Origin: Ricordea florida
Taxonomy: Eukaryota > Cnidaria > Anthozoa > Corallimorpharia > Ricordeidae
Length of the DNA: 64,000 nucleotides
Reading direction: 5' to 3'
Assembly: GCA_949710005.1 (NCBI GenBank)
Contig: OX453275.1
Span: forward strand, 30,509,218-30,573,217
In this document: piece after piece, positions 15,201-59,831 of the stretch
Numbering within the stretch: position 1 is the first letter of the stretch
How the letters are laid out: each line of letters begins with the position of its first letter
Made by a program: the position numbers and the translations under genes
Notes under the pieces: generated by a model
What the model was told of the DNA's origin: nothing
Databases searched by the model: none
Seen by the model: only the letters and a program-made list of their open reading frames with translations

Positions 15201-18200
15201 ATGGATCGATGTGGTTTATCCTGACTACAAGCGCTGTTCGTTTCACCAACCTGTTCTTTTACGAAACTTGGAACTTTTTCAGATGATGAACGTTCGTCTT
15301 GTTCAATCTTTTCCTCAACTTCATCAAGAAGATCATCCAAGTCATCTGCAAATGATGCTGCAAAAGGATCAAGGTTTGGGTTTCTCACTGGAGGGGACAG
15401 CCGTTTTTGTCTTGATGACGTTCTGTCATCTTTGTTAGAATAAGCAGGTTTCCTGAATTTTGGCTGAAGTGGTTTATTGGAGACCTGGTCATTGCTTGCA
15501 CTCTGTTGTTCTATTCTCCTCTCCTTGGCACCCTTCTGTTCAGATGTAGGTAATCCATTCTTCTTTTCCTCAGCAGCGGTCTTCTCGGAAGTTTTCTTTT
15601 GAGTGTTTTCATCTCTGCCCTGTGTCTTTTCCTTAATCCTTGCAGATTGCTTTGCTTTGTGCAGAGATCCAAACAGTTGAGCGTCCAAGTCGTCAATCTC
15701 TTCATCACTGAGCACTGGACTTTCCGGAGTCTCCACCACTTCACTAGCATCAGAATCTGTTTGATCTCTCTGGGATTCCTGTGGTGAATCATTCTTGTGG
15801 TCTGGTGCACCATTGCCTTTACTTTCATCGCCAGAGGGAATTAAGTCAGAATCCAGTGACGGTGTTTTCTCGTCTCCGGCTGATGAGTTTCCATCTTCAA
15901 AGCTGTCATCGGAGTAATTTGCCGACACTTGTTCGTGTCCATTGTTAACGTCTTTGACAGGATTGTCCTCCAGGATGGTGTCCCTTCAAAACAATGATAT
16001 TTTACTTTGAACTCACGTGGTATTGTCTGAGACTTTGTTCCTCTATTCTAGCGCATACAGAAGTGCCTAAAAATGATCAGTGACTCTCATCACACACAGA
16101 ATAATTAGTCACTGCTTCAAGAGCAACCCACTTCTGTAAAAAAAGGCTACAACATTGCTACAATTAAACTAGAGAGGGAGAAAACTGCGGTTTTAGGACA
16201 GACAAATTTTGACAGGGATTTTTTAGCTTATAAGCTAAATTTGACGAATTTTGAGCACAGGAATTTTGACAAGGCTTATAAGCTAAATATGTTTTAAAAC
16301 TTAACCAGAGATTTAATCAGAGATTTATTGGGTAATATTTCTGGGACAGGAAGATTAAGAATTTGAAAAATGGCTTAAAGATTTGATATTGTTTACAAAA
16401 GTAATTATGGTTCGGTTAAGAGAATTATATATTTATGAACTAAAAATAATAGCGAAAGATCTTGAAATTAAAGGAAGAGCAAAAATGAGTAAGCAAGAAC
16501 TAATTGATGAAATTTCTAATTTTAAAGATGAGGAAATTACTGATTTAATTGGAAAAGTTTTACCCATTAGCAGAATTATTTGTGATCATGGGAAAATAAA
16601 AAAATTTTGTAGCGAATGTAATGGTTATAATTGTGTGCATAATAAATATAAATATAGGTGTAAGGAATGCGGAGGGTCTCAAATATGCGAACATAATAAT
16701 CAAAAACAATGTTGTAAGGAATGCGGTGGATCGCAAATATGCGAACATAATAAACAAAAACAACAATGCAAAGAATGTGCGGGATCACAAATTTGTGAAC
16801 ATAGCAAGCAAAAAGCTTCTTGCAAGGCTTGCAGAATGAAATTATTCAATGATTTAAAATAAAAGCGAAGAATGAGTAATTGCGCTACATAACCTTTATT
16901 TTGGTTTAATAAAAAATTGATTTAAAGATAAAAAATATAATAAAAAATAAAAGATGGAAAGACGAATATATAGATGGGAAGAAAATTTTTATTTAAATTA
17001 CGAAAATGAAAAAGAACTGGGTTTTTGCGATTTTATAGAAGAAATCAAAAAGGATTTGTTAAAAATTATATCAAAAATTCGCGGTTTTATTGTTGAAAAT
17101 AGTGGTATTCATTTTGGCATTATTTATAAAGATGATGAGGATAATGGTTGTGTTATTAACTATAAAACTGAGTCTGAATTTTGTGTTAATGGGATATGCG
17201 TTGAAAAGTTTGTAAAAGATTCATTAAATTGGGCAAATGAATGTTTTAAAGCAAATGTTGATGAAAATGAATGGCTCAAATTTAAGTTTCGCAAAGACAC
17301 ATTAAATTGTAAAAATGGCGTTGATAATGATGATGATGCCGCTTATGAGGAATATCTTCGCCAAATTGATTATGGGGGAGTACCAGGGTATTTTGGTTAT
17401 TATGATAAGGAATGTGATATTAATAAGTTTGATAATAATTTTATTATTGATTTTATTGATATAATGATAGAAATAAATCCTCACAAGTTAGAGCACAAAA
17501 ATAAATTTTACAAAGATTTGCATTATGATTTAATGAAAGCAATACACAAACGTAAATTCTATAAAGACTTACACGATGAACTAATGGTTGTTGCTTGGCA
17601 CCCAACTAGATATTTAGATTGGTGTATTGATTTTGAAGAGTTTAAGTTTTTGAAAGAAGAGGTATGGGGCGATGAAGATTAATATTATCTAATTATGTTA
17701 TATAACTAAAGTAATAGTTACATAACAAAAATTTATCTAAATCTTAAACTAAAAGTTATTGGCAATCCCCTTAAATCAAGTTTTTTCCATTCATTGTCTA
17801 AGATAGTTAAATCAAAGTGGTTTATGGGGTTCTCATATTTTTGAACCGGAATTGTAGGATAATCCTTTGAGGGTATGTTTGCAAGTAGGTTTGATGGTGT
17901 GAGTTTCACAAGTTCTCCATATTTGGCGTTATTCATATATGACGATTTATTATCCACTATACTACACATAAGCCTCAAAGGTTCCCTAATCTGTATATTT
18001 ATGGGGTATAATTTACCAGGATTTAAAACTATAGGAACTCCTAAACCAATTGACAATCCTCTCGTAATTATAACTTTGGAGTTCTTATTTGAATAAAGAT
18101 AGTCAATAGTATCAGTCTCAATTATTGTTATTTTTTCCAGACCAGGATCATTAAGAAAGATTGATTGAATGCCGCTAAGAGAATATGTGCCCGGTTGAAT

Positions 18201-21200
18201 TATGAAGCTCTGATTCTTGCCATATAATATTGTCTGTTCGTCCTTGAAATTAATCAATCTTTTGGTTTGTATATTACAATCCAGGAGCTGTATCTCTCGA
18301 AGATTTTTCAGCGGCGGATCTAAATAAATCCTGGTTTCTGAATCATACATTGTAATACTCAACATTTTTGTTTTGATTATATTAAACTCATCTTTAAATT
18401 GAGCTATCTTGGATAATCAAAACATTAACGAAATAAAAACCAGGATAATAATCCCCCGGAAAGCATTAAAATAATAAGATTATTTTGATGAGAAGATGTT
18501 TCTATATTACTAACTTTTTCCTCATTGCTTGATTCATCACTATTGTTTAGTTTAGGTTTTCTTGGTTGAGGGTTGGTATTTAATAAAACCTTTGAGGATC
18601 CTAAACTATGACTTATTCCAACAGTTTTTGTCTCAACATTTATTGAATTATTTACCCCAAAGGTCATATCTTCTGTTACCTTTTTCAAATCATTATTGTA
18701 CCCAATAATGCTTTCTGTATTTATTATTAAATTGCTTGGCATTAACCAAACACCAGGAGCTACAGCTAAATCAAGTCGGGATTTTGATTCTTGAACCGCT
18801 GTTTGATATCTTTGAATTGATTTGGATGTGTCATTTTCAATCACAGAACTTTCAAATAAAGATATAAAATTTTGTTGGGTTTCAAAACCACCGCCCCCTT
18901 TACTAACAATTGAAGTTCTAGTATTAACTTGTGAGCCTAAAACACAATAAACAAAAGCTTCAATTGATCTATTTATTCTTCCCAATCCCGCCTTTGTTAA
19001 TCCACGCCCAGATTCTGCTATAAACCAAGCATATTGAAAATCAACAAAATGATCATTTCGAAGCATTGATACTAAATCGCCTTTATTTTTTCTGCCGCCA
19101 TCATCGTAAAATTTATTTTCGCGACTTGGCCAAATATTAGCTTCTGTATCATAACCTCTTATAATCCTAACATTTTGGTATCCGCCACCCGTTGCTTGAG
19201 CAGCTTCGCTCCCAGGAACGCTTCCGGGGTCCGCGTATCCTTTTCCATAATCAATGAATACATCCCCTAAACCATGATTTGTACCGCCCTTAAATCTAAA
19301 ATCGGCTAAAGTTTTATTCCATCCCTTATAATCTTGATTATTACTTAAATCAAATTCTGCGCATAAACGATTATAAGCATTTTTGTTGTATGGATTATTT
19401 TTTAAGGAAAAAGTTTTTTCGCCGGGTAATGGCACGTACAATTCATATAATATTCTTCTTATTGTAAAGTAAATGTGAAATACAAAAAAACTTCTAATAA
19501 CTTTCGGGTAACTAAAAATATCACTTAAACTTACGCCGCATCCAGACGTTGCGCACCAAACCGCCATGTTTAATTGTTGCGGCCACTGATTAATATTTGG
19601 TTTACTCAACCAAGCTCTAGCTTCTTTTCCACTAGTAAACCCCACAGTTTGATTTTTAAAAACATTTTTCATTGATGCGGTGAAACTATCTTTTTCTGAA
19701 ACATATATATTTAGATTGATTAATAATTTTGTTACATTAAGAGCAAATTCATCGAATTTAATTCCAGGTATTGGATATGTTTGTTTTGTAAATGTTAAAC
19801 TTTTTGGAAATGAACTTACCTTAACTTTTTTTTCTACCCCCAAATCTTTCCATAATAATGTTTTCAAATTATCAGGAAGATCATCAGTCCATGTTTTTCC
19901 AGTAGGATCATCATCAGACATAATTGTTGTCCCATTAACTTTCCATTTAATATATCCGCCATATAAATCGTGTACATAATTGAATTTAGTAAGATTTGCT
20001 TTTGGGTAGCGGTTTCTGAAATCACCAAATAACATCTTATTCTTTGTTTTCCAATTTATCTGATCTTTAGATTAAGAATAAGATGTAAAATTAATTAACC
20101 TCTCTTCTAACTCCCGCAAAACAATTACACCCCACATCAGTTCTTTCAAAAGAAATTTTTAATGAGCGGGATTGGTTAATTCTTTTAATAGATCTTCTCG
20201 AACTTTCTTCCTTATCATACTCATGTCGAAGTTTTTTTCTGAATCTTTTCTGAATTTTTGTCGTATTTCTTGTTTCAGTTTTTGAAATTTTTCCAATTCT
20301 GCTAAAATTATGGAAAATTCTTGATCGGATATAACATTATCTTTCAAAGCTTTTGAGACTAAATCGTTAATTGTGTTTAATTTTGATTTTGCAATTGCAA
20401 CGGTTTGTTCGTGTTTACTAACTTTGGAGGAAAGACTTTTAGAGGCAAAACCAAATCCAATCGACAAACCTCCAAAAACACCTCCAACCACACCCAAAGG
20501 CACACCAACAACAGCACCAAAACCCGTGAGAGAAGTTCCTAATCCGCTTGCTGATAGAAGAACTGAAATAAATCCACCAGAAACACTAATTTTTGTACAT
20601 ATTCCTCTTGCTCTATTATATTTTTTCCTTACTTCTTCGTAATGTTTAATTTCCTTCTCGAGATTTTGTAATACCTCGCTTGATTTTTGTAGTCTGAAAT
20701 TAATCAAATTATCTCCGCTTTGTGTTTGGAAATTATTATTAGGTAATTGAGGATAAATTCCATTGTATTCACCCATATTGTATTTTACTGAACGGTATGA
20801 TGTCTTTAAATTTGTTACTTTCTCTTCTTTTTTATACTTTCCACAAAATATAGAACTACAGCCATTATCAAAAGCCAAGCATTCTCACCTAAAAATCCAA
20901 TAACCTGACCTGCGGTTTTGAAAAGAAAGCTAACTATTGCACCAACCATCCCCGGTAATATTTCACCTAGTTTTTTACCTATAGTTTTCAACCCATTACC
21001 TACACCCCTACCCAAAGCAGATAAACCCCTTGAAAGATTAGAAACTATTACCCCAATGATGGCGCCCACAGCACTTAAAACAGCAAAAACTGTAAAACCA
21101 TACTTTTTGAAGATATACTTTAGTTTCTCCCGTAAAGGTAAATTTTTAATTATTTCATCTTTTCGACCCTCAATATCTGATAATTGTTCTTCACTTGAAA

Positions 21201-24200
21201 TTGTTTTATTACTAAGCCGTTCTTTTAATTTATCAACCTCAGATTTTAATCGATCATTACTTTGTTTTAATTTTGATTCATTTGATTTACCCTTCTTATA
21301 TTTATCTATTTCTTCTTTGTATAATTTTACTTCATCCAAAAGTTTTTCCGCTTGTATTTTTAATTCTACATTCTGTTTAACGGTTTGATCGAAAAGACTT
21401 TTATTTTCTGCTTTTTGTACTTGTTGTCTCTCAATGAATTCCCTAAGTTCTTTTTCTCTTTCCGCATATCGTTCAATCTCCAGCGGATATACTTCTGCTG
21501 TTGCTTTCAATCCTTGCAATGCATTATCTAATTCATTATTCGTTTCAATAGATTTCCTCAATTCTAACTGGGTATTATTATATTTTTCCAACATGCTTTC
21601 ATAATCTGCACCTAGAGCTTTTCTAAATGTTTTTGGTAAATTTTCTGTGTTACGAACGCCATTTTCATCAACTAATGTATGCCAAACATTATTAACTGCG
21701 GAACTTAATTTTCCTTCTATGCTACTATTTTCTCCAAAACGTACATTAAATGCGCCGTCATTGGGTTCGTAATTTGGGTAATATCGTTTGAGTTCTTGCC
21801 TAGCTTCTCTCATTCTATCATAATCACCATCTCTTTCTCCCAGGTTCATTCTTTCTGGCGGTTTTTCCCATTGAGCCCTGTCTCTTGATTGGTTATAATC
21901 ATCATAACCAGGATAATCTTGTTCAAGGGATGTAGATGTGTTTGCGGTTTGATAAAATGTATCATCCCAATCCCAATCATTATTATCGCCAGCATCATCA
22001 GTTTCTTTTGGTAAATCTTCCATTGGTATATATTCTGCCATGATTTTTTACTCATCAGTAAGAAATCTTTAGATTACCTAGAGTCGGGAATAAAATCAAA
22101 ATTGATTTAAAAGATAAAAGGAATAAATAAAAAGAAATAAAATGAGTAAGGAAGACCAAAAATATAAAACCGCCACAATTAGTGATATTGATTTTTTAAA
22201 TTACGCTAAAAAAACGGGGATAATTATTTCACGTCGAGATGCTAATAAGATTTTAAGTGAAATTAAAAAAGAACATGATCATGATAGAAACATTAAAGAA
22301 TATAAAAGAGAAATTAGGGCAAAATTAACTAAAAGATATGGAATAGAAAATGATAATAGTATTAGTGATGAAGAAATGACGAAAAAAATAGCTTCGAAAA
22401 TAAATAAAAAATAAATCATTTATGTTATATAACTTATTTTAATTTCTGTATTACAAGTTATATAATATTTTACTTACCGCGTAACCTAAACCTAACATTC
22501 CAGCTCCGACATATACCATTTCCCCAGTCTTTTGACCATCGCTTGGTTTGTAATAATCAGAGAATTTGGGTTCTTGCATTTGCCCGTACAATTCAAAAGC
22601 CTGATTTGTAGTAGAAATATTTTTTGATGCTTGATATTTTTCATCTTTTTTCTTCATTTTCCAATCAAGCATTTTTTGTCTTTTTTCCTGATATGCTTCG
22701 TAATCTTTTTGATATTTTTCCATTGCTTTATCGTGTCGTATTTTTTCTGTATCCACATTGCGCCCAGATAAATATTTTGCAAGAATATTTCCTCCGGTAA
22801 ATGCTGTCGCATTCAATACTGCTCCTATCGCCATCATTGCTAATGTCGCCATAATTTTATTTTGGTAAAATCTTTTGTTCCTCTAAATATGTTTTAAGAT
22901 ACATACTTCCGGATAATACTGCAACCCATTTTGCGTAATTTGTAATACTTGAGGATGGATCACTCAAAAATGATTCTTTCATTACCTTTTTAGCCACATA
23001 ACCAACTCCAGCTCCTAATCCGATAAGTACCGCCGAATCAGTTACAGTTTTCACAAGTTTGTTTTCAGTCGACATGATTTTTTTACTACATCAGTAAGAA
23101 ACTTTTAAATAACTTTATGTAGTAAAAAATAATTTATAATTATTCCATTCCTAAAGATTTTGAGGACAATGGAATTTTTGAAGGTTGAGGTATTTGCGGA
23201 ACTTGCGATAAATCAGCTATCCTATTGGAATATTCAACCCTAGCTTTTTCCTTATATCTCATAAAAAGATCAAATGCTGTAAACCCCAATCCAACAACAG
23301 ATAAAACAGTAGTAAAAGATAACTCCGGAAGCCATGATTTATATTCATTATTTGTCTTTTCTTGATTGTACTCTATTTCTGTATTTTCGTTTCGTTTCAT
23401 CTCCCTAGCTAATGCTTCTTTTGCTTTTTTATTATATTCAGCTAATTTCTTACCAGCTGCGACTTTTTTAGGATCTTTCTCCCTCTTTTTAGTATCTTTA
23501 TTTTCGGGTTTGGGATCGGCCGTAATTTGCTCCGCAAAGCGGGGAGGGGCTTCACCCCGATCAACTCCTACTTCAGATTGTTCAGACATTGTTATTTAGA
23601 TGCTACAAATAAGTTTTTAGATCTGTTTAATACACAGTATCAACACCCTCAGTAGATTGCTTAGTTTCCTGATCAGTTTTGTTAGAATTTACTGGTTCTT
23701 CTCTTGGAAATTGTTGATTTTTGTTGAATTTAACGTGTTTAGCTACTTGAAATAGTCCGCTAGCAAGTGCTGCCAATCTTCCTGCTTTCAATGCTAATAA
23801 CCCAACAATGTTTGTTAATTCGCGATTTACCAAATCATCATTCTTCAAATCATTGCAAAGAGATTCTATATCATCAACTGGAACTAAATATGAAATAAGT
23901 TTAGAAACTAATTGCAGGGAAGAATCTACTAATCCACCATTAATTTTCTTACCCATTACTGCTTGATAACGATTAAAATACTTTTCAACATCTTTTGCAG
24001 ATAATTTCTTTATATCGCCCAGACTCATTTCAACCCCCAAATATTCCTTTGTTGTTCCTAAGGCTGCGAGAATGGCAAGTGATTCTTGTTTTATTTCAAG
24101 ATCCTCACTTTGATTGGTATCATTTTTTACCGTCGGTCGGTCAGTTTTTTCTGTCGGTTGGTCAATGTAATCTTCCGGCTTCGCCGGGGAGAGCTTCGCT

Positions 24201-27200
24201 CGATCAATATTAGCCATCTTTGTTAAATCACTTCTGGTATCTCTAAATAGCAATTAAATGGGTGTCGCAAACTCAAACAAAGTCTAGAATATTTTTCTGT
24301 TTTCAGGAGATGCATAAACTTTTTACCTAATTCATAATCCAAATCACCGCCATAATCTTCAAAAAACATTTTCATACCTTTCTGCGATGGATTATGGAAA
24401 GTAACAACGCAGGCTACATTTTCTCGGAATGGTTTTGCTATTGATGTTAATTGCTGAGTTAAAACCCAAACTGATAATCCATGATGCCTTCCAGAGAATG
24501 CTAAATCTATAAATTTATTAGATCTTTTCTTCAGATCGGAGGATACAGCGCAATCATCTAAAATTATTAATGTATTTGTTCCAGAAAACAAAGTTTGGCA
24601 ATCATTTAACAATTCATTGATCTCATCTGAATTACTTGCATCTGGTGATAATACATAAAAATGTTCATCTCCTAGAGCAAAATTATGATAAGTTTTATTT
24701 TTAGAATAGGTTGGACAAATTAACACAATATATTCAAAAACTTTCCGGAATGGACCTCGGAGCTGTTCAATTAGGTATTTTGTTTTTCCGCAATTTGTGG
24801 GTCCTGTTATAATACAATGGAATGGTATTTTATCTCGTAAATCTTCCATGATTTTTTGTATCATAACATTATGTTTTTAGATTCTCAGTCCGCAAAGCGG
24901 GGAGGCGCTTACGCTCCGATCAGTACTTAATTGATCTCAAACTTGAATTCATAATCTCCATCATTGCATCTGCTACAACAAACATATGACAAGTTACGGT
25001 TCCAGATCCGCTTTGTTTCCTTTTAATTTCTATTTTTACGCCGTCGTGCGTATTATTTAGAGCAAGTCCACCGCCATGAATACCATTATCTGGATGAGTT
25101 CTAGTATCAACCCAAAGAGCAAACTTATCCGCGTAAAATTCTTTTTCTTTCAATGAAATTTGTAAACCATCATCCCGGTGAAATCTTTTTTTCACGGATT
25201 CCCAAAGATCGGACGGAATCATTCCCCTAGAGTATATTCTATTTGGTACGCCATCAACATCAATTTCAACGGAAGATATACCTGGATTATAAAAATTTTC
25301 AGAATCCCTTGCTCCTGCAGCTTGAGGCAATAAAAACAAAAATAATACCCCAGTCATTGATCTTCTCGGTAAATTAATATGCTGGTTAATAACGCCGTCA
25401 CCACCAACGGAAAATGTAAAAGTTTTGTGCAAGGTAATATTTTCATAAAAGAATCCTTTACCAACTTGATAAGCTGCTTGTGCCTCACGAGCTAAGTATT
25501 CGCTTGAAATTGAAGAATATTCTAACTCTAAGTTTTTGATTGAATATGATGCTGCTTTAGTTGTATCAGAATAAATAAGAATATTGGCGATCGGGGCAAG
25601 TGTAAGCTCAAATATAAGATGATTTTCCAACGCTTTCGGATAAAAAACGCCATGATCGTTTAGAATAGGATGATTTATTGGTATTCTGTACTTTGAACCA
25701 TGAACATTGGTGAGAGCAACTTCTTTTGCGTCTTGTGTTTTTGCATCTCCAGCTTTTGTTCTAAGTTTTCTAATATTTAATGAAGAAATACCTTGTTTTA
25801 ATCTATCTTCGCGCTCTTCTTCAGTTAAGAATAAATCATGATATGTTTGAAATAAATCATATCTTTGAGTATCTTGCAATGTTTCTCCTCCAAAAAGAAC
25901 TTTCAGTCTGGTTACAAGATTACGGCCCAAATTATTCACAACTGTGTTATTAGCATGGCCCTCAACATCTAAATCAAATAGAAGAGATACACTTCCGGGG
26001 ACAATCACTAAATTCTCAGAAAGTTTTGGAATATTTATGTATAATGTTTCTCCTGGACTGGCTGAGGATGGATTAAGAGTAATTCGATTCAATGTTGATT
26101 CTGCTTTCAAACCAAATGGTTCTTTGGGAATTCTGTTTGGATTAATTTTTTCAGACGTCATTGTAATTTATAAGATACTTTGGTTAACCTTTAAACCTGT
26201 GTTGTTCTATTTTCTAACTTACCAATATGTTTTAATAAACCTTCTCTCGCCTCGGGAATTAAAATCATAATATTAAAAATTTTATCACCATCTTCCATAT
26301 ATAGAATTTTTTTTCTAATAATTTTTTTCATAATGTTGATTTGGTATTCGGTAAATTTTATTTTTTCTTCTTCCGACACCATTTGATTTATAAGATAATT
26401 TGTTTATTTTTAAATGAACAACGAAAATATACTCTCAAAAATATATTATTCAGCTGAAGGATATTGGAAAGGATATTCTGCAATTCCTAAATTAGCCGAG
26501 AAAACAAGAGTAAGTGAAAATGATGCAAAACAATGGTTGCAAAAACAAGCTATATGGCAAATCTATCTGCCTGCTCCTAAATATATACCTAGACCGCACT
26601 GGACTGTGGATAAACCTAATCAGATTCACCAAGCAGATTTATTATTTTTACCACATGATAGAGTTAGAAGAAAAACATATAAATATGCGTTAGTTGTGGT
26701 TGATATCGCCTCGAGATATAAAGATGCTGAGCCATTAACCTCAAAAGAAAGTCGAGAGATATCAGAAGCTTTTAAGAAAATATATTCTAGAAGATTGAAA
26801 TACCCAAAAACATTAATGGTTGATCCTGGGAAAGAATTTATGGGAGAAGTTAGTAAACTCATGAATTACCATAATGTGAGAATACAAAGAAGTGAAGCTG
26901 GTAATCATAGAGCCCAAGCATTTGTAGAAAATGCAAATAGAATATTGGGCGAAAAATTATTTAGTCATCAATATGCGCAAGAAATGATCGACGTTGTCGG
27001 GCCTTCTGGTCTTAGTGATGGTCGATCAAGGGTATGGGTAAAAAGATTACCAGCTATTCTAAAAACCTTGAATAATACACAGATGAGAATAACCGGTAAA
27101 GAGCCTGATGAGGCTATAAAACTGAAAAGGATTGATATTGAACCAAAAAATTATAAACGAGCGGTGGGGCTTGATGAGGTTAGATTGCCGCCTATTGTTA

Positions 27201-30200
27201 AAGTTAGATATTTATTATCACCGGGTGAACTTGAAGGTGGAGAAAGAAGACGAGCTACTGATCCTATTTGGAGTATCAAAGTTTATGATATCTCCAGAAG
27301 TGTTATTTCATCCAATCAACCGGTTTTATATTATTTAATTGATGGGTCTCGGCGAGGATTTGTAAGGGAAGAATTACAAGTTATTCCTTATGATACTGAG
27401 TTGCCTCCCAATTCTGTTTTGGTAAGATCCAGCTCTGCTGGGGAGGGCTCCGCCCGATAATGACCATATGGAAGAGTATGTATTCCATCTTTTTGAATGA
27501 TTCTCTTATCATCATAAGCAGATAGCGCTTTTTTATTAACTGTTTTTGTGTAAATATCGTGTAGTTTTGATCCGATTAAATTTTGCAATCTCATTTGCGG
27601 TTCTTTAGTATTCAAGCAATTTTTAAAATCATTAAAACTTATTGTTTTCTTAACAACTAATTTCTTTGTTCCTTTATTCTTCTTTATCTCTTTTCCATTG
27701 TCCATTAATAATGCATATTGTTTAGCCCCCAAACCCACAAATTCTGTTGGTATACTTCCGCCAAACTCATCTTTGAACTTGCCAATTACTTTTTTGTTTT
27801 CATCGTCCCAAATACCAGATTTGTGGTTTTTTGGGTAGTTGCTAGTGTCGAACTTTTCCCTAACATCAAGCCTTATATCTTCATAGAAATCCTCCGTTTC
27901 TATATTATATACAAGACTATCAGTATCAGTCATAAGTAATTCGGCTTTTTCTCCGTATTTCTCTTTAATATAATTATAATGAAAGTCATACATTATTTGT
28001 TTACTTAAATCCAAAATGGAAAACCCCACATAAACCGGTTTATTAAATCTTATTTCTGTTTTCTTCATATTTATGGCGGCAAGATCCTCAGAAAATATAG
28101 TAAAATGATTAAAGTTCGGTTTTCTTATTAATTTTTTAGCTGATTCTATATTATTAACTAATCTAACGTCTATCCTTTTTCTCATATTTTCCATTGTTTT
28201 GCCAAATACGGAGTTATTCATAAGTTTGAAGAAATCTTTTTCAAAGTCGTTTTTCGCATGTTTTCTCAATTCAGTATTCCGATCGATGTAAGTTTGCAAC
28301 CACTTAGACTCTTGAAATTTAATTCCCTTATGAATCTTTGTTATTTTTAATCCTTGTTTTTCATAAAATTTTAGAGTTTCATGATGAATTACATATCTTT
28401 TCTTATCAAATAGATTTGGTATTAATTTCTTAACTTTATTAACAGTAAGTTTTTCTGGAGCTAAAGGTAGATCTTTATGGCTATCATGAAGATTTTTTGG
28501 GTATTCCAAATCAACCTCAACTATACAAGGCATATCTCTCCAATTTTCAAGCTCTTCATTTGGAATCCATTTAAATCCACGTTTTGGTAATTTCTTGCTC
28601 ATTGCGGCTCCATATAGGTTATTTGCGTCAAGATAAATAATATAACTTATAAGTTTATTTATTTCAAAATCTGTCATATAGGGGTTATTAGCTTTAGCAT
28701 ATCTTTTTGATACTTGGGATGTTCCCCCTCTAATCCCTTTCTCAATAAAAAGCAGCATATTAACGTCTGTAAACAACTCCAAACTAACTTTAGTTAATTT
28801 TAACATCGCATCCCAAGATAATCCTGGGGATGTAAAATAGTGAGCAGGATCTAAACTATAATTATTAATACACACATCTCTAAAGTTCTCAAATACGTCG
28901 GCTAGCTGTAATACATCTGTTTTTAGGTATAAATCATGATAATCTCTCATTATTTTCATGTCAAATGTTTCCCACACATTTTTAGCGTGTTCATAATCCG
29001 CATCTGAAATATCTTGATTATTAAGAATTGATTTAAATGCTTCCTTTGGTGGAATTTCTGTTTCATTAAGTTTATCAATTCGATCAAAATAATCATAAGG
29101 GAACACACCCTTTCTCAACAATAGTTTTAACTTTTCTCCTGCGAAATGTTTCTTAATTTCTGTCATATTTTTATCTATTGGGGAAAAACACATACTTCCT
29201 AATAGTTTACAATTCTTACATTGATCGCAATTACCAACGCCATTAAAAGTAATAATCTTTCCATCTTTTATGTATCTTTTCAAACATTTTCCTGGTTTGC
29301 ATGACTCACATTTTCCGCATTTTGTAAGATTGTCGACCAATCCGCTAAGAGAGCATTGCATAAATTTATAAGAATCAATGAATCTTATTGTTCTAGTAAT
29401 TGGCTTTTCTTTGTCATCCTCACCCTCATCGCAATCGTGATCGCGATCGTGATCGTGATCATAATTAATTAAAATTTTCTTTGAGAAACTAATATACTTT
29501 TCATCAGTGTTGGCTAAACAGCTAATTTCGCCCTTTGTTTTACCAAGATTCTTAATGAATAGATGAGAGTCATACCCTGACAGATTATGAATTACTACTG
29601 GAACGAATTTGGGAATAACATATTTTAAGTTACAAATATTATGCGCCGCTCCCCTATATTTTCCAGTAAGATGACAATGATCTATTACTTTTTTAAAATC
29701 TTCTTCTTCACTTTCAGAAAATTCACGCTCACATATATGACAATGAGTTGCATTTTCATAATCTTTTTTACCCATTTCTGTCATATTCTTTTTGTCATAA
29801 ACTTTAAAAGTTTCCTTTTTTTCTTCTATTAGCTCAAAAATTTTCCTAACATCTCTTTCTAAATATTCTGTAAATATCTGCGCGACATCCTCATCATCGG
29901 ATTTTGCGGTATAATTCACGCAGATTTTAAAATCATTTGGTAATATACTTTCATCGAAACATTTAATATAATAGCAGAACCCCGATGCTTTATGCATTTG
30001 GTAATTTTTTGTAAAGCTTTTAATTTCGTTTGGTGAACAAGTATGTATTGGTATTAGTCGACCTTCAAAATCTACATAAACAACAAAAGGCGATCGCATT
30101 TTATTTTTAAAATTTTTAAAGTAAATAAATTTTGGGCTGCCATCTTCATTCTTTGGCATTTTTATTTTAACTTCGCCGTGTGAATCGCAGTATTCTTTGT

Positions 30201-33200
30201 GTTCTTGTAAAATCCTTTCATCATAAAATGAGTTGAAACATCTAAGGCAGAAATGTTTTTTATGTTTATTATTATCATTTTCAGATGATAAAAGTCTGCT
30301 AACATTATTTACTAAAATATAGTGGGTTTTTTCGTCATTATTTATTAAAAGTAATGTTATAAATTTACAATCACATAACTTGCATTCATAATTATTGCAA
30401 TCGCATTTCTTACAGCCGCATTCTTCGCATTCGTGTTTTGTGCAGTCTTTTTTCTCACATTTCTGTTTTTTCTTACACTCTTTTTTCATACAGCCGCAAT
30501 TCTTACATTTTTCTTCTTTCTTGCAATAACATTTATCGCTTAATCTCGCAGTATATATTTTATCAGCTTCTTCGTCATATTTCAATACATTAACTGGATA
30601 TGGGTTTTGTTTTTCAAACTTACCAAAATCTTTTAATTTCATTGCGCCTTCTATACCAGAAAAGTTTAATTTTTTACAATTTTCCAACAATTCATTATTT
30701 ACCCTCTCTCTGTGATGTTTTCTTGGAAACGCTGCCTCTGTTAATGAAAGTTGACCACAATCATCACACTTATTTTGTATGTTAATAGTAGCTTTTTTTG
30801 CTGCTAATCTTTCTGGCGTTGGTATATATGAACTCCCAGAAATAACTGTGTAAGGCGCTATACCAAGATCAAATCGCACTACTGAATCAAATTGAAAAAC
30901 GCCAGAATCTGTATTTTCTTGAAATCTTTCAACCTCACCAAGTATATTTTTAATTATGTCGTCATATTCTTTTGTCAAATCGCTTGCCTCTGTAATTATT
31001 TTTGGTTTGGCGTGAAAGTATTTTTCAACCTCTTCTGCAATTTGGTTATTTGGAGCTTTTACAAACTTAGATGATAGTATAACCTTAACCTTTTTTGGTT
31101 TCTTATCCTTATTAATAATATCTATAACCTTTGGTTTTATTTTTTTCATGAATTCTTCAATAGTATATCCTTTTTTCCCATCTATAGTATGTTGCCTCAA
31201 ATAGCCATTTTTGAATTTTCTCACATTTTCTTTGATAATTAATTCTTCTTCTTTCAGCCTTTTTGTTTTTGGCCTTGCTCCCTCCTTCTTGTAATCTCTT
31301 TTTGATTTTGTTCGGTTTGAACGATTTTTAGGTTGGTTTATATATTTCATTCGCTTTTTTATATCTATCTATAAAATTTTTAGCTAGTTCCTCTGTTTTA
31401 TTTTTTACTTTTTCTGGAATATATGGTTTTACAAAATCCCAAAACTTGTTTAATACATTTCCCAAAAAGGGGGTTTGTTTGGTATTTTTAACCGATTCAT
31501 TTTTTATTGCTTGTTTTTTAGGTTTTGTTGGAATGGGAGGTGGTGGGCGTGTTGGTTTGGGTGGAGAAGGTCTTTTTGGTTTTGTTTTTGGTTTATTTGA
31601 TGGGGGTGTGCCTGGCGGTGTTCCTGGCCTATATCTATCCGGTGAACCTGGTGGTGTTTCTGGTATATATCTATCTGGCGAACCTGGCGGTGCGTCTGGA
31701 ATTTGAGTTGGTTGTGGAATATTTAAGGGTGGTAAATTTGGTCTGTTTCTTGGTCTTATTCGCGGTATTGGAAGAGGCAGTTGTGGCTGGTTTGCTCTTC
31801 TCCTCGGCATATTATTTATCTCTCTAAAAATTTCTCTTCTATTATCTGCGATTTGTTGGACATTATTAATTACTTCGGGGATATTATTCAATGCTTGTAT
31901 TTTTGCTTCTCTGGTAGTCATTCTTGATCTACCTCGAATTCTATACCACGAAAGTAATGAACTTAATTGTTTTACATTCAATTCTCTTAACCGATCCATA
32001 ATTACTTTTGTAAATAATATCAAATCTTTAAGCCATTTTTCAAATTTTTAATCTTCCTGTCCCAGAAATATTACCCAATAAATCTCTGATTAAATCTCTG
32101 GTTAAGTTTTAAAACATATTTAGCTTACAAGCCTTGTCAAAATTCCTGTGCTCAAAATTCGTCGAATTTAGCTTATAAGCTAAAAAATCCCTGTCAAAAT
32201 TTGTCTGTCCTAAAACCGCAGTTTTCTCCCTCTCTAAACTTCTTTCAGAAACGTTTCATCGTTATTGCACGTTTGTGGCAGTCGATTCCCTTTCTTCCTT
32301 CTCAGTTCCCGAGTCCTTGAATTAATTTATTTTATTCGTTTTGTAAGCACAAAGTGGACTTTGAAATCTAGAAGTCCGGGGGTCAATTCGATAGCCCTTT
32401 TACAATTGTAATTTACAAGTGTGGCTATTGTTTTAGAGTTAACAACAATACCTACGCTTATAAATTACACTTTAGTGTCAAAGGGTTATTGACTTGACCT
32501 TAAATCTAAAGGATGAGAAATCAATATGAAAGAGGTACTGTCACCATTTCTTTGCTTCGTGTGGTAATAAGTACTGAAAATCTAGAAATTCTGAACTTCA
32601 CGCTATTATATATTGTTTCACTTAAACGAGAACTAACATCCCCTGATTTCAGTTCTTCGGGATGTAATGTATTTCCTTCCACCCTTGCCAGATAAATAAC
32701 AATGGTTAGCTTTAATTAACAAGCAGGCTACAAAGGTTGGTGTTATAACGAATAAGTGTTCATCTGTCAATTTAAAAGTTCAGGCAATCATATATTGTCC
32801 TCGTTATGCTAAACGTGACTTCGTAGCTAAGTTATTGATATAGAAATCGAGAGCCAGTTAGTTTTAAGGAGTTTCCCCACGACACGGAAGCAGCACTTCG
32901 GCTTGAAAAAGTTAGCAAGCATCTTAAAGATGCAATTCGTGTCCATCCTTGCCACCCTTGGGTAGAGATAATAACAACCGCTTTCAGTCTATCAACATGG
33001 TACTGTCTAGGGTGGAGAGGTGGTTATTTTTGGTTTTAATTCCAATACATTCTTGGGCTTTCCATAATATCTCTAAAATACATGAGAGTCTGCCTATAAT
33101 TTCATTGGAATCCTAATAACGGGTATTCATTGACTCCATACCTATGTGTAGCAGCTTCTTCAGGTTCAAGAGAGAGATCTTCTTTAGCGCAGTCGGATGG

Positions 33201-44100: not shown

Positions 44101-47100
44101 AGATTTTATCTAACTTTTGTAATCGATATCATACAGTAGTTCTAATGCCAAAGATTTGGGATATAAAAGTTAGTTATCATAGTAGTTCCTCAAAATAATG
44201 GTTTGGTGGAATTTTTTATTGATTTTCATAGATGGCCTAAGCTCCTGGATCTAAAGGGTTTTAATGCATGGGAAATGCAACAGTTTTTTCAGAGATAGAA
44301 AATTAGATCTTTTTCCAAAACAAAATCAACTTTACTTTGCATCTGTGTGATATTTTGTGTTGTCAGCCTGATTCTTGGGTCATTTAAAAACAATTGTGTT
44401 TGAGTAATTAGAAATCAGAAATAGCAGTAAAATGAAATCACTTCTAAATGACCAGATGGAGAATCAGACAGACTGAAAAAATATCGTACAGAAAGAAAGC
44501 AAGTCAGTTGTTTGGAAAAAATATAATTTGCTACCATTTCTCATACGTTTCTCATACATTAAAGTCCTTTTGATCGAGAGAGCTTATTTGAGCTCTCTAT
44601 CGTTTAACCCTTTATGCCCCAGCAGTGACCAGCATCCAATTTCTCACTACAATACTCACTGTTCATCAACCATTCAGGTTTACGTATGAGAATAACGAAA
44701 ATGATCACAAAAAAAGTTGTATTGATATTAAACAAAATAATAATTCTTACCAGTACCATATTAAACAAATATATGAAAACAGTTAGAAGAAAAGGAATAT
44801 TGATATTGAGGCTTAAAAGGTTAACAAATGTTAAGTTTGGATTGTCAGATTTTTGTTTGTGTGCTCATTAAATCAGGCATGCATGTGAGCACATACAAAG
44901 TCTATGTAAGTTAATTTGATTTGATTTTGACCAGAGTTTGTGATTTAGAGTTTCCTCTAATTAATTTTAGAATCTGTTTCTGATTTTTGCACTATTTCAT
45001 AACTCTTCGGGAATATGCTTCTGGGTAAGTGTTTTTTTTTTGCGTTACGTAGGTTTAGAAAGTAAAATAATGTAGCATGTATTTTGCTGTAAGCTTTTTT
45101 TAGTGAATTTGGCGAGACCGCTAAGGTGACATCTATATCACACCCAAAGTACGTTATTAACTGTAAATGAGAGGCGGAAAATCGGTACAGTGCTGCATAC
45201 ATGTTACCTAAGTATTCAAAGCGTTATATGTTGTGGTTCAACTTTTGGATCAATGTAAGTATCTGGGCAACTGTGTAGCTACCCCTCCCCTAACCCAACA
45301 GTAACACAAACTTCTTAACTTATTATAACTTGTTGGTGTAAGGGAGGGGTAGGTGCACAGTTGTCTAGATACTTACATTTATCCAACTTTTTTCACCAAA
45401 TGTTTAGGAAATCAAGTAGCAGAAGTAGTCAATACTGCAAACTCCAGCAACCAATCGCCTTTAGATGTCGCCTGCCGTTACTCCCAAGGTGGTAGTGTTA
45501 AAGTATTGCTTGAGGCTGGGGCCAATCCTAACCAAACAACAGAAAATGTTCATCCTATCCACACGGCACTGAAGTCCCAGAGTGAGCAATGTGCCGCTGT
45601 GTTGTTGGAGTTTCATCCAGAGCAGATCAGTGTACGAGATAAGAAGTATGGTGGAACACCCTTACACTGGGCCAAAACTAAAGAGGTCAGAATCACCATC
45701 CTCAGGGGGTGTTTTTGATTTGAAATATGTGGGAGTTGTTAATGACGATCATCACTTAAAAACAGAAATGAAAACCATCCCACATTGAAAACAAAGTATT
45801 TTGTGCACCCCTCGACCGACATATCGATCGACATATCGACCGACACTCAACCGATGTATCGACCGACACTCGACTGACACTCGACCGGGATATGGCGGTC
45901 GACATATCGGCCGATATATCGGTCGAGTGTCAGTCGATATGTCGACCGATACATCGTTCGAGTGTCGGTCGATATGTCGACCGAGAGTGGTTGTCTGATT
46001 GTCGGCCGAGATGTCGATCGGTAGGCCACCCACATTCCGCCGATACTTAGCTGATACTTAGATGCTGGTGACTGTAGCCTGCGTCGCACACGTAATTTAA
46101 CCTTGGTTAGTAACGTCTGCTGAGCATCGCAGATATCCCTGTTCTACGTCCCGCTTCTCAAAGGCTTCTTTGTATATATAAACCCAGCGTAGTCAATGGA
46201 ACAAAACCGAACCAAAAATCAATCGAACTCAATCGAACCCGATTGGTCGGACTGTTTTTCGATTGAAACCCAGCCCTGTTCCATACTGTAAAAATCATAG
46301 GGACTACCCCAGTAAAGGCCATATACCATGACAGGTATGGCGGTGTGAAAAAGTTGCTTAAACGTGAACTCGCGTTTTTTTATTTTATTTTTATCTTGGT
46401 TGTTTTGTCAAATGCTTGCCTAACTCTCCCAAAGTTTTGCAGTAAAAAAGCATTAGTGCGATGCATGGGCAAATTCAAGACTTGCTTGTCTGTCATCAGT
46501 TCTATTCCAACACCTTGTTATCCTTCATCGTCCTTATCCTCTTTCCTGTCAACTGTATTTTGTGTATTTGGCAGTATTTCACTTGGGTGTCTTGCATGAC
46601 AACGGCTGAATGACCCGAACATAAAGCCTTCAGAAATTTTAAGGTTGACCAAGAAAGGATGAAATACGCATAACTTATACATCTGACACTGGCAGTCAAG
46701 ATATTTTGTAAAGGCTTACATGATTCACTACCCGGCAGTGGGTAGTGAAGGCAGTCAAAGTTTTTGACTTACATTAAACGCCGACAGTTGACCGATATAC
46801 CACCGACACTCACTGGTCAACCTATCGACCGACACTCGACCGAGACTCGACCGATACATCGGTCGGCATATCGACCGACACTCGGCCGATATCTCGGCCG
46901 ATATATCGGTCGATATGTTGACCGATATATCTCGGCCGATATATCGGCCGAGTGTCGGTTGATATGCCGACCGATGTATCGGTCGAGTGTCGGTCGATAT
47001 GTCGACCGATACATCGGTCGAGTGTCGTTCGATATGTCGACCGATACATCGGTCGAGAGGTGCACAAAATACACATGATCCAAAAATTGTCATGATCAAA

Positions 47101-53077: not shown

Positions 53078-53257
53078 TTAACACTGTTTAGACTGTAACT
53101 TTTTTTTTCGGTATATATATAGAACACGTTGACAAAATTGAGAGCGTTTATTTTAGATGGTATGAAGAGGCAGGTTTAAACCGTAGTGGGAGTATAATAG
53201 ACGCAACGCAAAAGTATTTCCATTTAGTAAGTGGTGCATCAAAGGTATCTTCAAAAT

Positions 53258-56200
53258 ATGCCCACCGTCAAAGAGTTACGCTCTTTAGCAAGAAGTTATG
53301 GATTATCTGTAGGTTCTAAGATGCTGAAAGCTGACCTCCTACGAGCTATCGGGGAGGCTCACGCCGCGGAGTGGAGGAAACGACTCCGGCGAGCGCTACA
53401 GATGGGGAGATACCCTGCTATTACCAGAGGGGATATAGAGAATCCTCATAAGAAGTGGCAGCGGGCTCGTGAACTCTGTCAACTTGCGAGAGAGGTTGAC
53501 GCTGCGCTTCTCGCGGAGGGTGTCCGAAAGAAAACTACTCCAACGATGAGGGCAGAAGTTCGTAGAAAAATTGAAAACCGTCGAGCCCCCTTAGCGCGAT
53601 CTCTGGTTCGAGAAGGTGCGCGTATACTCGAAGAGTTGGATGGAGAGAGAGAGGGAGAGGAAGCTGGTCGCCGCTTCTGGAAGTGGTCTTTCTTCCGAGG
53701 CGTGGCCGGGTCTCTGGTGGATCGGATTATGGATAAGCTCCATGAGAAGGTCACCACCAGCTGCTATCTCCGATACAGTTACACCTATCGACTAAGGAAT
53801 ATCGAAACGGGAAAAACTATGCTGTTTCACAAAATCGTAAAAGGCAGCCCTTGGATCCAGCAGCTCGAGACGCAAGCCAGAGACTGGGTGCAGGCGGAAG
53901 ACGAGAAGCGCTTGATTGGTGACCAAATCGAGCGACCTAACACCAAGTGGGTCTTCATCCGATTTATCTCTGTGACAGTAAAAGCTATAGTAGATTGGCA
54001 GGCGCCTTTGTTGGGGACAGGACCACTACCCAGCTGGCTCAGAAGAAAGCCTAGGATGTATTCCTTGGATACATACGGAGATAACCTCTGTCTCTTTAGG
54101 TGTATCGCCGTTCATCGAGGTGCGCGTGCTGATTGTTGCACTCGCCAAGCTCGAGCTCTCGCTAGAGAGATATACAAATCACACGAGACTTGCCCAGGGG
54201 TTTCTCAGGACGAGCTGCGGAAAGTAGAGCAGCACTTCCGGCTCGGGATCTGGGTATACGAACCACAAGAGTCGGGAGATTGGCTGCATCGGAGGCACCC
54301 GGCTCACTATGAAAAAGTAGGCACTCCACCAATGACGATCGGCGTCTACGAGGGGCACGCGTTTTTCATTCGCGACATCCGGAAACTCGCGAAAAAGTTT
54401 GTGTGCGGGGAGTGCAATGCAAGGTTCACACGCGCCGACAACCTCCATCGCCACGCCGAGCGTTGCACCCAAGGTGAGACAAAAGTTGTCTGCAAAGGAG
54501 AGAAAGTGGAAGCTCCACCATCGGCCTTTGAGAAGGTCTTCTACCCACAAAAACGGGATAGCGTCCAAGCCGTCCAATGGCTCGAGTATGAAGCCCGAAC
54601 TAGAGGGATCCATATCCATCACCAGCTATGTGGACATGGAGGCGAGCGAGTGATAGAAGGTTTCGCCGTAGACGGTTATGATCCCATTTCAAAGACCGTC
54701 TTCCAATTCAACGGGTGCCTATGGCATGGGTGCAAACGCTGTTTCCCATTGCCGAAGCAACGCCAGGAGCAACTTCGGAATCTTTCCAAGAAAAAGGGCA
54801 GCCCTGTTACACGTGAGATAGCATACCAACAGACGCTCGAGCGAGAAGCCAAAATCCGAGCTGCTGGGTTTCGCCTTGTGGTTCGGTGGCAGCACGAGGA
54901 GCCTAAACCTTGGAGAAAAGACCGCATCCCCGAACGAAAAACCGAGACGTACCCCCACGCGATCGTGTATGACTTCGAGAGTTACCTCGACAAGTCCAGT
55001 GCGAAAAAACCGACCGCCGATTTGACTATAGAGGGAGCCCACGTTCCTATCTCCGTCTCCATATCAGACACCCTGGATCCGACTCCCGAACACCTATGCG
55101 TACGAGAGTCTAAGTTGTTGGTCTAAGAATTTGTTCGAGTGCTAGAACGACGGGCCGTTTGGATACGCGAACATGTTCGCGCGAGGTTCCTGCCCGACAC
55201 CATCGAGCTCTTACCAAAAAAGTATCGGGAAGCGATCGAAGAGTGGTGCGACCAAGTCCCTGTGCTTGGATTCAATTCGGGGAAGTACGATTTGAATTTG
55301 ATCCGGAACCACTTCGTCCCAGAAATCTGCAAGACGACCGACCAGTCCATCAAAGTGGGGTGTAAGGAAAACCAGGTTATGTATATCACAACTCCGGGCT
55401 TTAAATTTCTGGACGTTTTGAACTACATCGGTCCTGGCAAAACCTACGATGCTTGGGTCAAAGCCTACGGTTGCACTCTCACGAAGTCTTGGTTTCCGTA
55501 CGAATGGTTCGACTCGCACGACAAGCTCGACTTCCCTGGCCTACCGGACTACCCACAGTGGTTTTCGAAACTGAAAGGCAAATATCTTCTTTCCCTTTCA
55601 GAATATCGAGACTGCAAGCGGGTATTCCGGGAGAAGGGGATGCAGACCTTCGCGGACTGGCTCCGCTACTACAACAATCTCGACGTGGGCCCCTTCGTCG
55701 AAGCACTGGCCAAAATGCGCGACTTCTACACCGCGTATGGAATCGACATCTTCAAAGATGCGGTTAGTCTACCTGGAGTGTCGATGAGGTTCGTCTTGCG
55801 AGGCACACTTTGCAGCCCCAACCCGCCCGAGCTGTATGCCCCCAACAAAGAAGCGTACGACATGCTCAAAGCGGCGGTTGTCGGAGGGCCTTCGATTGTA
55901 TTTACCCGCTACCACTTGGTGGGGGTCTCGCGGATCCGGTCGCACCAATACGACCAGGCCCACCAATGTCAACGCATCCTCGGCTACGACGCGAACGCGC
56001 TCTACCTCTCTACCATGGCAGCCCCTACGCCCTGTGGGAGGGAACGGTGATCCACTACCGTAGTCCGGACGATGTCGATGGGTTTGTGGAGGCTCTACGA
56101 GAAGGAAGGTGGTTCGGGTTCGCCGAGGTTGACATCGAGGTCCCCGAACACCTCTGGCCAAAGTTCGAAGAAATGCCCCCGCTCTTCTACAACAAGGAGA

Positions 56201-57234
56201 TCCCCATCGAAGCGGTTCCCCAAGAGATGCTGGACTATCTCGAGCGAATGGGACGAACCCGATCAACAGATCCGAAGCTTGTCGGGGCCCTATGGGCCAA
56301 GAAGATTCTGTTGTACGCCCCTCTGCTCCGCTGGTACCTAGCCCACGGTTTAGTTGTCACCACGGTGTACCGGACGATCAACTACAAACCGCAAAAGATC
56401 TTCGGCTGGTTCGTCGACCAGGTTACAGAAGCTCGACGAGAAGGGGATACCAACAAGGACAAAGCACTACTTGCTGACCTGTTTAAACTGCTGGGTAATA
56501 GTTGCTACGGCAAATTTATCGAAGCGCTGGAGCGCCAGACATTGGTCTCCTACACAGCCGACGAAGCGGTGGTCGATCGTGCTCTCCGCTCTTCCTGGTT
56601 CGAGGACCTCGACGAAATAGGTTCCGCCTACGAGATCCACAGGAGGAAGCAGAAGATCGAGATCACCCGCCCGTTCCAAATCGGAATCACAGTCTATCAG
56701 CTAGCCAAACTACGGATGCTCGAATTCTACTACGACTTCCTAGACCATTTCGTAGACCGAAGATCCTTCGAGCTCCTACAGATGGATACCGATAGCCTGT
56801 ACATGGGCATCGCCGGGAAAAACCTGGACGACGTCGTCCGCCCCGAGCTCCACGAAGAGTTCGAGGGCTGCAAAAAGAAATGGCTGGCTTGGGATAAATG
56901 GAGCGGCCGGACGCCGGGCCTGTTCAAACTCGAGTTCGAGGGAACCCGGGCCATCGCTCTATGCAGCAAGGCGTACTATGTCGACAGCGAAGGAAAAAGC
57001 AAAACCTCGGCGAAGGGGATGTCCAAGAAAGACAACGACTTGACATGGAGGCGCTACAAAACAACTCTGGATGGAGCGCTCGACCGGGCAGAAAACCGGG
57101 GATTCCAAATGGACCACGGAAAGATGACAACGTACCACCAGGAGAAACTCGGGCTTTCCGCCTACTACGACAAGAGACGAGTTCTACCCGACGGGATTCA
57201 CACCGAACCCCTTGAGTACACTTTCAGGGGGTAA
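53258..57234 (+). pseudogene. Family B DNA polymerase of a second lineage, broken twice
   Basis: The start is the ATG at 53258; the frame above it opens with GTG. Parts in order: SAP-like residues 1-30 (VKELRSLARSYGLSVGS), a basic helical region, an OTU-like segment near residue 275 (DNLCLFRC with a later GHAFF), a C2H2 finger near 383, a PD-(D/E)XK/Vsr-like nuclease region (FAVDGYDP, FQFNGCLWHGC, later LVVRWQHE), Exo I YDFES, Exo II FNSGKYDLN, motif A GYDANALYL, motif B GNSCYGK and motif C MDTDSLY. Breaks are an in-frame TAA at 55124-55126 and a frame change near 56035-56050, just after motif A. Homology to the element 1 polymerase is clear only in the catalytic core and the C-terminal DKRxxxxDGIHT. 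The copy cannot make a full-length enzyme as it stands. Confidence 0.85.
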
Positions 57235-58209: not shown

Positions 58210-58247
58210 TGGTCTATAGTTCCATAGCGAAAAAAAGCTATTGTGTC

Positions 58248-58679
58248 TCACAACAATCGGCTAGCAGCATACCCAATGGCGAGCATCCCACCCCCTACAT
58301 AGGCTAGTTCACCTGTTTGTTGGGAACTCGAAGGACGGTAATAATCGCTCCATTGCGGGACGTCGTGGTCATCAACCGCTGTGGGACGAGGATGGGTTTT
58401 AGCGTACAAGTCGAGAGCGCGGTTAGTTGCACCTGTGTCTTGGTCAGCGCGATTTCGCAGTCGTTCCTGCTCTGCTTCCCAATCAGCCAGATTCTCGCGG
58501 CGTTTCTGAAAGGCAGCCCAGTCAGCCTGGAACTTTTCCAAAGCTTTGTCGTGACGCTTACGCTCAGCCGCCATTGCATCGGGACCTTTCCCAGAAATCG
58601 CCCGTGCGAGATACGACCCACCTACGAAGGCCGTAGCGTTCAGGATAGCCCCACCAAGCATCAACGCTATGGTTGCCAT
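58248..58679 (-). CDS. Two-helix membrane protein, homolog of element 1 133-residue protein
   Basis: 143 residues, intact. It has an N-terminal hydrophobic helix (MATIALMLGGAILNATAF), a charged stalk with RKRHDKALEKFQ, a YRPSSSQQTGEL motif and a C-terminal helix. Same plan and size as 22451-22852. It lies directly beside the integrase here, whereas in element 1 it is at the far end of the capsid block. Confidence 0.7.
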   Translation of the reverse strand: MATIALMLGGAILNATAFVGGSYLARAISGKGPDAMAAERKRHDKALEKFQADWAAFQKRRENLADWEAEQERLRNRADQDTGATNRALDLYAKTHPRPTAVDDHDVPQWSDYYRPSSSQQTGELAYVGGGMLAIGYAASRLL

Positions 58680-58681
58680 CT

Positions 58682-58897: not shown

Positions 58898-58927
58898 CGA
58901 GACTATACAATACAAAAATCTATTCCA

Positions 58928-59829: not shown

Positions 59830-59831
59830 GA

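Follow-up and report, generated by a model that had tools for sequence, protein, structure and literature searches.

The element and its four double-hairpin units

The stretch of DNA analysed here, referred to below as the window, comprises 64,000 nucleotides (nt) from the corallimorpharian Ricordea florida (contig OX453275.1, positions 30,509,218 to 30,573,217 of the forward strand) and contains a Maverick/Polinton-type element, element 1, that carries four GC-rich double hairpins of about 30 nt, E1 to E4. Element 1 is bounded by terminal inverted repeats (TIRs) of 304 nt with 91% identity (16140-16443 and 31963-32266). Pfam comparison recovers in it an rve integrase (PF00665) and a Pox_A32 ATPase (PF04665), and its capsid-like open reading frame (ORF) reaches 21.8 bits with Capsid_N, under the curated cut-off of 24. 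The 1320-aa ORF, labelled a polymerase in a preliminary description of this DNA, is without a Pfam match; it matches locus L059 of the host genome, which is also matched by the DNA_pol_B_2-containing polymerase ORF of a second element in the window, and this shared match makes the polymerase label likely. The element and its units are as follows:

16140..32266, no strand assigned: Maverick/Polinton-type element 1, carrier of the units, recognised by its TIRs and Pfam matches
23531..23560, plus strand: unit E1, a 30-nt insert with hairpins CCGC-AAA-GCGG and GGGG-CTTCA-CCCC
24174..24203, plus strand: unit E2, a 30-nt insert with hairpins CCGGC-TTC-GCCGG and GAGC-TTC-GCTC
24889..24919, plus strand: unit E3, a 31-nt insert with hairpin CCGC-AAA-GCGG and an imperfect second hairpin
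27428..27457, plus strand: unit E4, a 30-nt insert with hairpins CCAGC-TCT-GCTGG and GGGC-TCC-GCCC

The boundaries of these inserts were derived by comparison with relatives in which the site is empty, and the units share the plan T-stem1-3nt-stem1'-GGA-stem2-loop-stem2'-GA over ~30 nt. When filled and empty relatives are set against each other, the inserts mostly begin with TCC, finish with CGA and lie directly ahead of a T, usually of TC. The flanks are TTTGC/TCAAC for E1, ATCT/TCAAC for E2, CGG/TCAG for E3 and AAGA/TAATG for E4, and further insertions have the flanks AACCAC/TCCCGC (L021), CTCCCT/TCAGTC (L045) and TTCCTGA/TCAGTT (L043, L044, L047, L052). A short direct repeat at the edges, of varying total length, is T or TC in most clean cases. 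The well-fitting comparisons give insert lengths of 30 nt (E1, E2, E4, L021, L045 and a site in the integrase interior), 31 nt (E3, L030) and 33 nt (the L043 group). Rows in which the nearest empty relative has other indels were dropped (27 or 35-45 nt fits, including those for E1 and E2 of the window); one of these, L064, fits 39 nt against L025 without mismatch and ~30 nt against L049.

Read on the minus strand, E1 provides 10 codons near the N terminus of the ORF at 23140-23589, and E2 provides 10 codons (DRAKLSPAKP) at the N terminus of the ORF at 23627-24217. The corresponding peptides are MSEEVV-DRGEAPPRYA-EQI in filled L066 versus MSEEVV-EQI in empty L064 and L055 for the E1 site, and MTEV-DRAKLSPAKP-EDY versus MTEV-EDY for the E2 site. 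E3 separates the capsid gene, whose stop is at 24920-24922, from the ATPase gene, which starts at 24864, and E4 forms the 10 codons directly before the integrase stop at 27458-27460 (...NSVLVR-SSSAGEGSAR-stop), being at the same time inside the overlapping minus-strand ORF 27388-31350. The proposal in the preliminary description that units supply the stop codons of the capsid and integrase genes does not hold, since the TCA at 24920-24922 (minus strand) and the TAA at 27458-27460 are both outside the inserts, and relatives with empty sites (L029 for the capsid gene, L027 and L032 at the E4 site) keep these stops. At the five cleanly resolved coding sites, namely E1, E2, E4, the integrase interior and the C-terminal part of the E2 gene, the inserts measure 30, 30, 30, 30 and 33 nt, all multiples of three that add 10 or 11 codons; both 31-nt sites (E3, L030) are outside named ORFs. 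At about 26989-27012 the integrase ORF of the window has an 8-residue insert relative to its homologs, DVVGPSGL, encoded by GC-rich, partly self-complementary DNA, and this may be a decayed unit, though it was not reported by the covariance model described below.

Filled and empty sites in related Mavericks

In the host genome (537.8 Mb in 48 contigs) the exact 23-nt core of E1 occurs 34 times, and 20 of these occurrences, fetched as nine-kb loci (the L021-L040 group), all represent the same site in related Mavericks. As these loci were picked by the E1 core they are uninformative on E1 occupancy. When the window and the 20 loci are aligned, only the window, L023 and L040 carry E2, 18 loci lacking it, and E3 and E4 are each confined to the window and missing from all 20. 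Different inserts occur nearby: L024 has another double hairpin just upstream of the E3 site, and near the E4 site L037 has another double hairpin and L021 a larger insert with a reversed hairpin. Clean filled/empty pairs with zero flank mismatch are L066/L064, L021/L038 and L030/L037; single mismatches separate E3 of the window from empty L051 and the E2-site pair L042/L047.

Patterns anchored on the flanks, which allowed any insert of up to 30 nt and to which longer ones are invisible, gave 1863 genome matches for the E1 site and 824 for the E4 site, against 0 for either control; the former number implies that this Maverick family is very abundant in the host genome. Of the first 100 matches in the E1-site listing, seven are filled (one decayed), three partial (15, 12 and 9 nt) and 90 empty, and among the first 100 listed for the E4 site three are full (one decayed), four partial (15, 15, 9 and 9 nt) and 93 empty. 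Each of the 17 non-empty rows in the two listings has a length divisible by three. In the E1 listing filled copies occur in several flank haplotypes, at least one of which is both filled and empty: the haplotype CAACAGCTTC is filled at C1:6493501 and empty at C1:2412186, 17084031 and 20268353. Some remnants consist of the unit edges without the hairpins, an appearance that deletion of the folded part would produce; such short remnants are seen at the E3 site in L039 and L040, and in the E4 listing at C1:10228523 and C2:6048507. In L046 the second hairpin at the E1 site has been replaced or nested (GTCC-CTTC-GGAC), making the insert 9 nt longer than usual and in frame.

Two further sites that are empty in the window are filled elsewhere:

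23672..23673, no strand assigned: empty target TTTCCTGA/TCAGTT, occupied by a 33-nt unit in L043, L044, L047 and L052
27025..27026, no strand assigned: empty target GGTCGA/TCAAGG inside the window integrase gene, occupied by a 30-nt unit in L021, L040 and L059

The integrase-interior site is also filled in protein relatives. Among 120 listed integrase relatives, the E4 peptide is found in one (P0241) and this second exact site is filled in three, with 10 aa in P0249 and P0256 and with 20 aa in P0258, which we read as a double insert; P0269 has 11 aa at a third place. For the E2 gene, 120 protein relatives were listed, some of them with a shorter N terminus, and the E2 motif occurs in none of these, 39 having in addition been inspected by eye; one of the 120, P0130, has an insert near the C terminus that reads like a 33-nt unit. 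Loose peptide motifs also matched the capsid relatives P0008 and P0029, where they are ordinary sequence and were set aside. The closest capsid relative, P0001, is 97% identical and lies on a contig of 16,053 nt, near the length of one whole element, which may reflect a fragmented assembly or extrachromosomal DNA.

These occupancy data bear on the possibility that the units are not mobile and are instead ancestral coding or spacer DNA, lost from most relatives by precise deletion between short TC repeats. The short direct repeats at the edges would suit such a process, and the remnants of 15, 12 and 9 nt indicate that deletion does happen. Against this, the filled state is the minority at the listed E1 and E4 sites, the listed protein homologs are mostly without inserts, and ~20 site clusters, at unrelated positions and with units in either orientation, show one and the same plan and core. 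We consider this origin extremely improbable.

Pairing, recurrence and probable movement

Scanning the plus strand of the 16.1-kb element for GC-rich double hairpins yields five places, four of which are E1 to E4; 60 dinucleotide shuffles of the element average 0.25 places and never exceed 2. In the remainder of the window this loose scan picks up 22 further places, most of them in its GC-richer part, so a double-hairpin scan alone is not specific. A grammar scan that required pairing, applied to the window element and the fetched loci, collected 71 copies with the GGA spacer (48 distinct) in 20 site clusters and in both orientations; the uniform orientation remarked on earlier holds only in the window, and relatives have units both ways. 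The pattern GGGGAGN{8,14}CGATCA, which sets no pairing condition on its 8-14 free bases, has 684 genome matches versus 183 for the reversed control, and stem 2 is paired in 78 of the first 100 listed (26 distinct cores) as against 4.2% of shuffled cores.

A MAFFT alignment of the four window copies puts the spacer in the wrong place, so a covariance model was built from 15 copies of equal length (14 distinct); these include E2 and E4 but leave out E1 and E3. In them 97.6% of cells pair and 17 are compensatory, values reached by none of 500 shuffles, and slid structures pair at 32-48%. Their invariant columns are TCC..GGGGA..CGAT. Searched against the 64-kb window at E<=1, the model reports E1 to E4 only, with E-values of 0.003 for E1 and 0.036 for E3, so that all four double hairpins initially noticed are recovered; in 244 kb it reports 60 matches at the same threshold. 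The initial observation that stems differ yet pair therefore stands for the family, with the exception of the second stem of E3, which is imperfect (a wobble or a bulge). A two-sided change is seen at the E1 site, where L041 has CCAC/GTGG and most copies CCGC/GCGG. Folds of single copies are unremarkable, with z-scores of -0.65 to -1.37 as RNA and -1.38 to -1.99 as DNA; the argument is drawn from recurrence and covariation and does not depend on fold energy.

The conserved pairing could be taken to mean that the units are selected RNA or regulatory elements, acting at mRNA 3' ends or in translation control for the benefit of the Maverick, with mobility incidental. The placement of E3 at a gene junction would fit, as transcript ends of Marseilleviridae fall in hairpins according to an excerpted report (PMC5413956). 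Such a role is nevertheless hard to reconcile with the ordinary single-copy fold energy, with ~90% of the listed E1 and E4 sites being empty, and with positions scattered over N termini, the integrase interior and gene junctions in varying sense, and we regard it as very unlikely.

A further possibility is that hairpins arise de novo at each site by template switching during replication, without common descent. Several hairpins occur with their loop in both orientations, the expected mark of foldback copying (CCGC-AAA/TTT-GCGG, CCGC-GAA/TTC-GCGG and GGCGC-TTAC/GTAA-GCGCC), the two forms GGCGC-TTAC-GCGCC and GGCGC-GTAA-GCGCC being both found at the E3 site, and the nesting of units in hairpin loops, described below, also agrees with this idea. 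Yet the core TCC..GGGGA..CGAT shared by the 15 copies requires a common source, and whole hairpins are common to different sites, which leaves independent origins quite improbable. Template switching can still account for the upkeep of the stems despite the common core.

The first 30 places of GGGGAGN{8,14}CGATCA lie without exception on contig C1 and yielded 28 new loci (L041-L068); of these, 25 have a double hairpin, and every one of the 25 encodes proteins of this Maverick family; the remaining three have neither a hairpin nor an element-protein match. Two stricter patterns found no match in IMG/VR viral contigs, one exact unit pattern found none in prokaryote genomes, and the capsid protein of element 1 has no confirmed close relative in viral contigs. 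A loose pattern had 12 matches in IMG/VR, on contigs with a GC fraction of 0.55-0.73, of which L009 could form a 4-bp second stem, one other a 3-bp stem and ten none; these were taken as chance, the scan having been run without a control.

Nesting was assessed by the position of insertion junctions. In seven of the 20 site clusters at least one copy has its junction in the loop of another GC-rich hairpin, compared with a background of 255 of 23075 TC junctions (1.1%) in the window element and the 20 loci; with clusters taken as independent the binomial probability is 1.4e-9. The exact E4 unit occurs 41 times genome-wide (control 0), and L030 has an identical 25-nt core at two sites, which is likely to be a recent local copy.

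As in mobile GC-rich hairpin mini-elements, then, the units are discrete, with precise empty sites, and have two hairpins that stay paired through compensatory change. We conclude that the four units are very probably copies of a mobile, non-autonomous mini-element of ~30 nt that inserts before T, mostly before TC, and we assign a probability of roughly three in four to the full reading, in which this is a mobile mini-element of one Maverick family. The suggestion of a mobile mini-element with conserved structure, made at the outset from the four window copies, is thereby borne out: further copies exist, relatives are empty at exactly these sites, the stems change with pairing kept, and the bases do not prove to be ancestral coding sequence at all four sites.

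Several points weigh against this interpretation. Edge duplications range in length from 2 to 6 nt or more, with no fixed target-site duplication, and the L030 unit (near window position 23120) finishes with CGAA and not CGA. The analysis connected no transposase or nuclease with the units; Pfam comparison of seven element ORFs at E<=1 gave no transposase-like match and no HUH domain. The 11 placed E4 units (eight fetched, the window and two occupancy rows) are all at the E4 site with differing flanks, implying that the insert spreads mostly with the Maverick by descent and recombination and that new jumps are rarer. If distinct flank contexts are counted in place of clusters, 8 of 45 are nested, and when only cores starting with CC or CT are considered, the figures drop to 4 of 17 clusters and 4 of 39 contexts. 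Two of five covariation measures are weak, the pairs with two-sided change being equalled in 10 of 500 shuffles and the further pair types in 493 of 500; moreover, the 15 copies came from the pairing grammar, so the covariation values are partly built in and serve as supporting evidence only. The choice of the 20 nine-kb loci by the E1 core is a selection bias, and the 25 hairpin-bearing loci sampled all stem from the first 22 Mb of a single contig, with L066 overlapping L067 and L068 overlapping L023.

Another conceivable reading is that the units are miniature inverted-repeat transposable elements (MITEs) moved by the Maverick's own rve integrase. Element 1 does encode such an integrase, and a few other hairpin inserts have direct repeats of ~6 nt (GTAAAT in L023, GATTTTA in L021). 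In contrast to what is expected of MITEs, units of the TCC type have a terminal inverted repeat of at most two bases and no fixed target duplication, the edge duplication measuring a variable 2 to 4 nt in many clean cases, and this mode of movement appears highly unlikely.

For the mobile mini-element favoured here, the use of hairpin loops as targets suggests that the DNA entered is folded and single-stranded. Maverick replication is attributed to a protein-primed, strand-displacing polymerase, which would expose DNA in this state. We tentatively propose that a unit might enter when the Maverick DNA is single-stranded and folded during strand-displacement replication, a single-stranded or hairpin-targeted entry that would explain the loop targets and that we hold to be possible at somewhat under even odds. 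After entry the unit would spread mainly with the Maverick by descent and recombination, as each site tends to keep its own unit. Stem pairing is probably maintained by template switching between the arms, by selection for foldback DNA that movement requires, or by both. In its most far-reaching form, which we put forward as a doubtful but not negligible speculation, the unit would be a hyperparasite of ~30 nt confined to a DNA virus lineage, entering single-stranded loops, keeping a length in multiples of three and having its stems rewritten by foldback copying. If so, it would rank with the smallest known mobile elements and be without a described precedent in such a virus, with structure and not sequence being inherited, and with a length that leaves virion and integrase genes readable. 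The units also add short peptides to viral-type proteins. The more than 1800 alignable copies of one site, filled and empty, in one genome and one virus-like family allow direct measurement of target choice, constraint by the reading frame, nesting and copying between arms.

Comparison with known mini-elements and further inserts

Yeast mitochondrial GC clusters are mostly intergenic, and fungal mitochondrial double-hairpin elements (DHEs) consist of two adjacent GC-rich hairpins over a few tens of nt and are optional between relatives. The present units behave like both, and we claim membership in neither; the likeness of the units to fungal DHEs and Rickettsia palindromic elements, pointed out in the preliminary description, is taken here as a resemblance and not as kinship. 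The mitochondrial families differ in location, as the window sits on a 36.6-Mb contig; unlike organellar DHEs, the units are in protein genes of a double-stranded DNA virus-like element, and unlike yeast GC clusters they have a virus-like host element in place of a mitochondrion, another sequence and target, and in-frame coding inserts.

The yeast clusters (GC42), as described in excerpts of one study, are GC-rich palindromic sequences of tens of nt with edge repeats AG or ACT (PMC4478555). The units share with them short edge repeats (mostly TC here, and of varying total length), presence/absence polymorphism and footprints, and their nested composites may be set beside the merger and shuffling of units there; the same excerpts treat the mode of movement of mitochondrial mini-elements as not settled (PMC4478555). 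Rickettsia palindromic elements are likewise palindromic inserts that leave the reading frame intact and lengthen existing proteins by a peptide, but the excerpted account describes ten bacterial families of ~150 bp, as opposed to 30-33 nt in a Maverick (PMC10969869). Bacterial repetitive extragenic palindromic sequences (REPs) are also palindromic repeats of 20-40 nt with many copies and, in the portions of the source at hand, differ in being bacterial and extragenic with GTAG or CGTC tags (PMC3733652). The repetitive hairpin-forming elements of sponge mitochondria, from a similarly partial source, are structurally diverse hairpin inserts, a few of them in frame in protein genes, whereas they are mitochondrial, the protein-gene insert is 90 bp and AT-rich, and the sequence differs (PMC2800124). 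Among the open-licence papers listed by our searches, we found no report of such units in Mavericks or Polintons.

Related Mavericks also contain inserts of other kinds. A second double-hairpin type has the spacer GCC in place of GGA (e.g. TCGGCGGAGCCGGGCCCGACTTTGAGTCGG) and edge direct repeats of varying length, and was located at the following places:

L021:5152, GCC-spacer type
L022:7418, GCC-spacer type
L027:7234, GCC-spacer type
L028:1621, GCC-spacer type
L039:1683, GCC-spacer type
L040:1578, GCC-spacer type

A hairpin insert CGAGC-TTC-GCTCG-GGA-CCGGC.., found at L023:7134 and L033:7055 (minus strand), is flanked by a direct repeat of 5-6 nt (GTAAAT/TAAAT), unlike the TC-edged type. On the plus strand, L025, L030, L033 (as a tandem pair) and L037 carry, a short way upstream of the E2 site, the GC-rich short repeat TCCTTCGGACTGGCGGAGCC and its variants. 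In the window itself, the covariance model (E<=1) reported no unit in the second Maverick-like element at 53231-63822, which is GC-richer (~54%) and has its polymerase matches split over two overlapping ORFs. Also outside element 1, the segment at 45796-47072 contains dense inverted and direct TCGACCGATATATCGG-like repeats.

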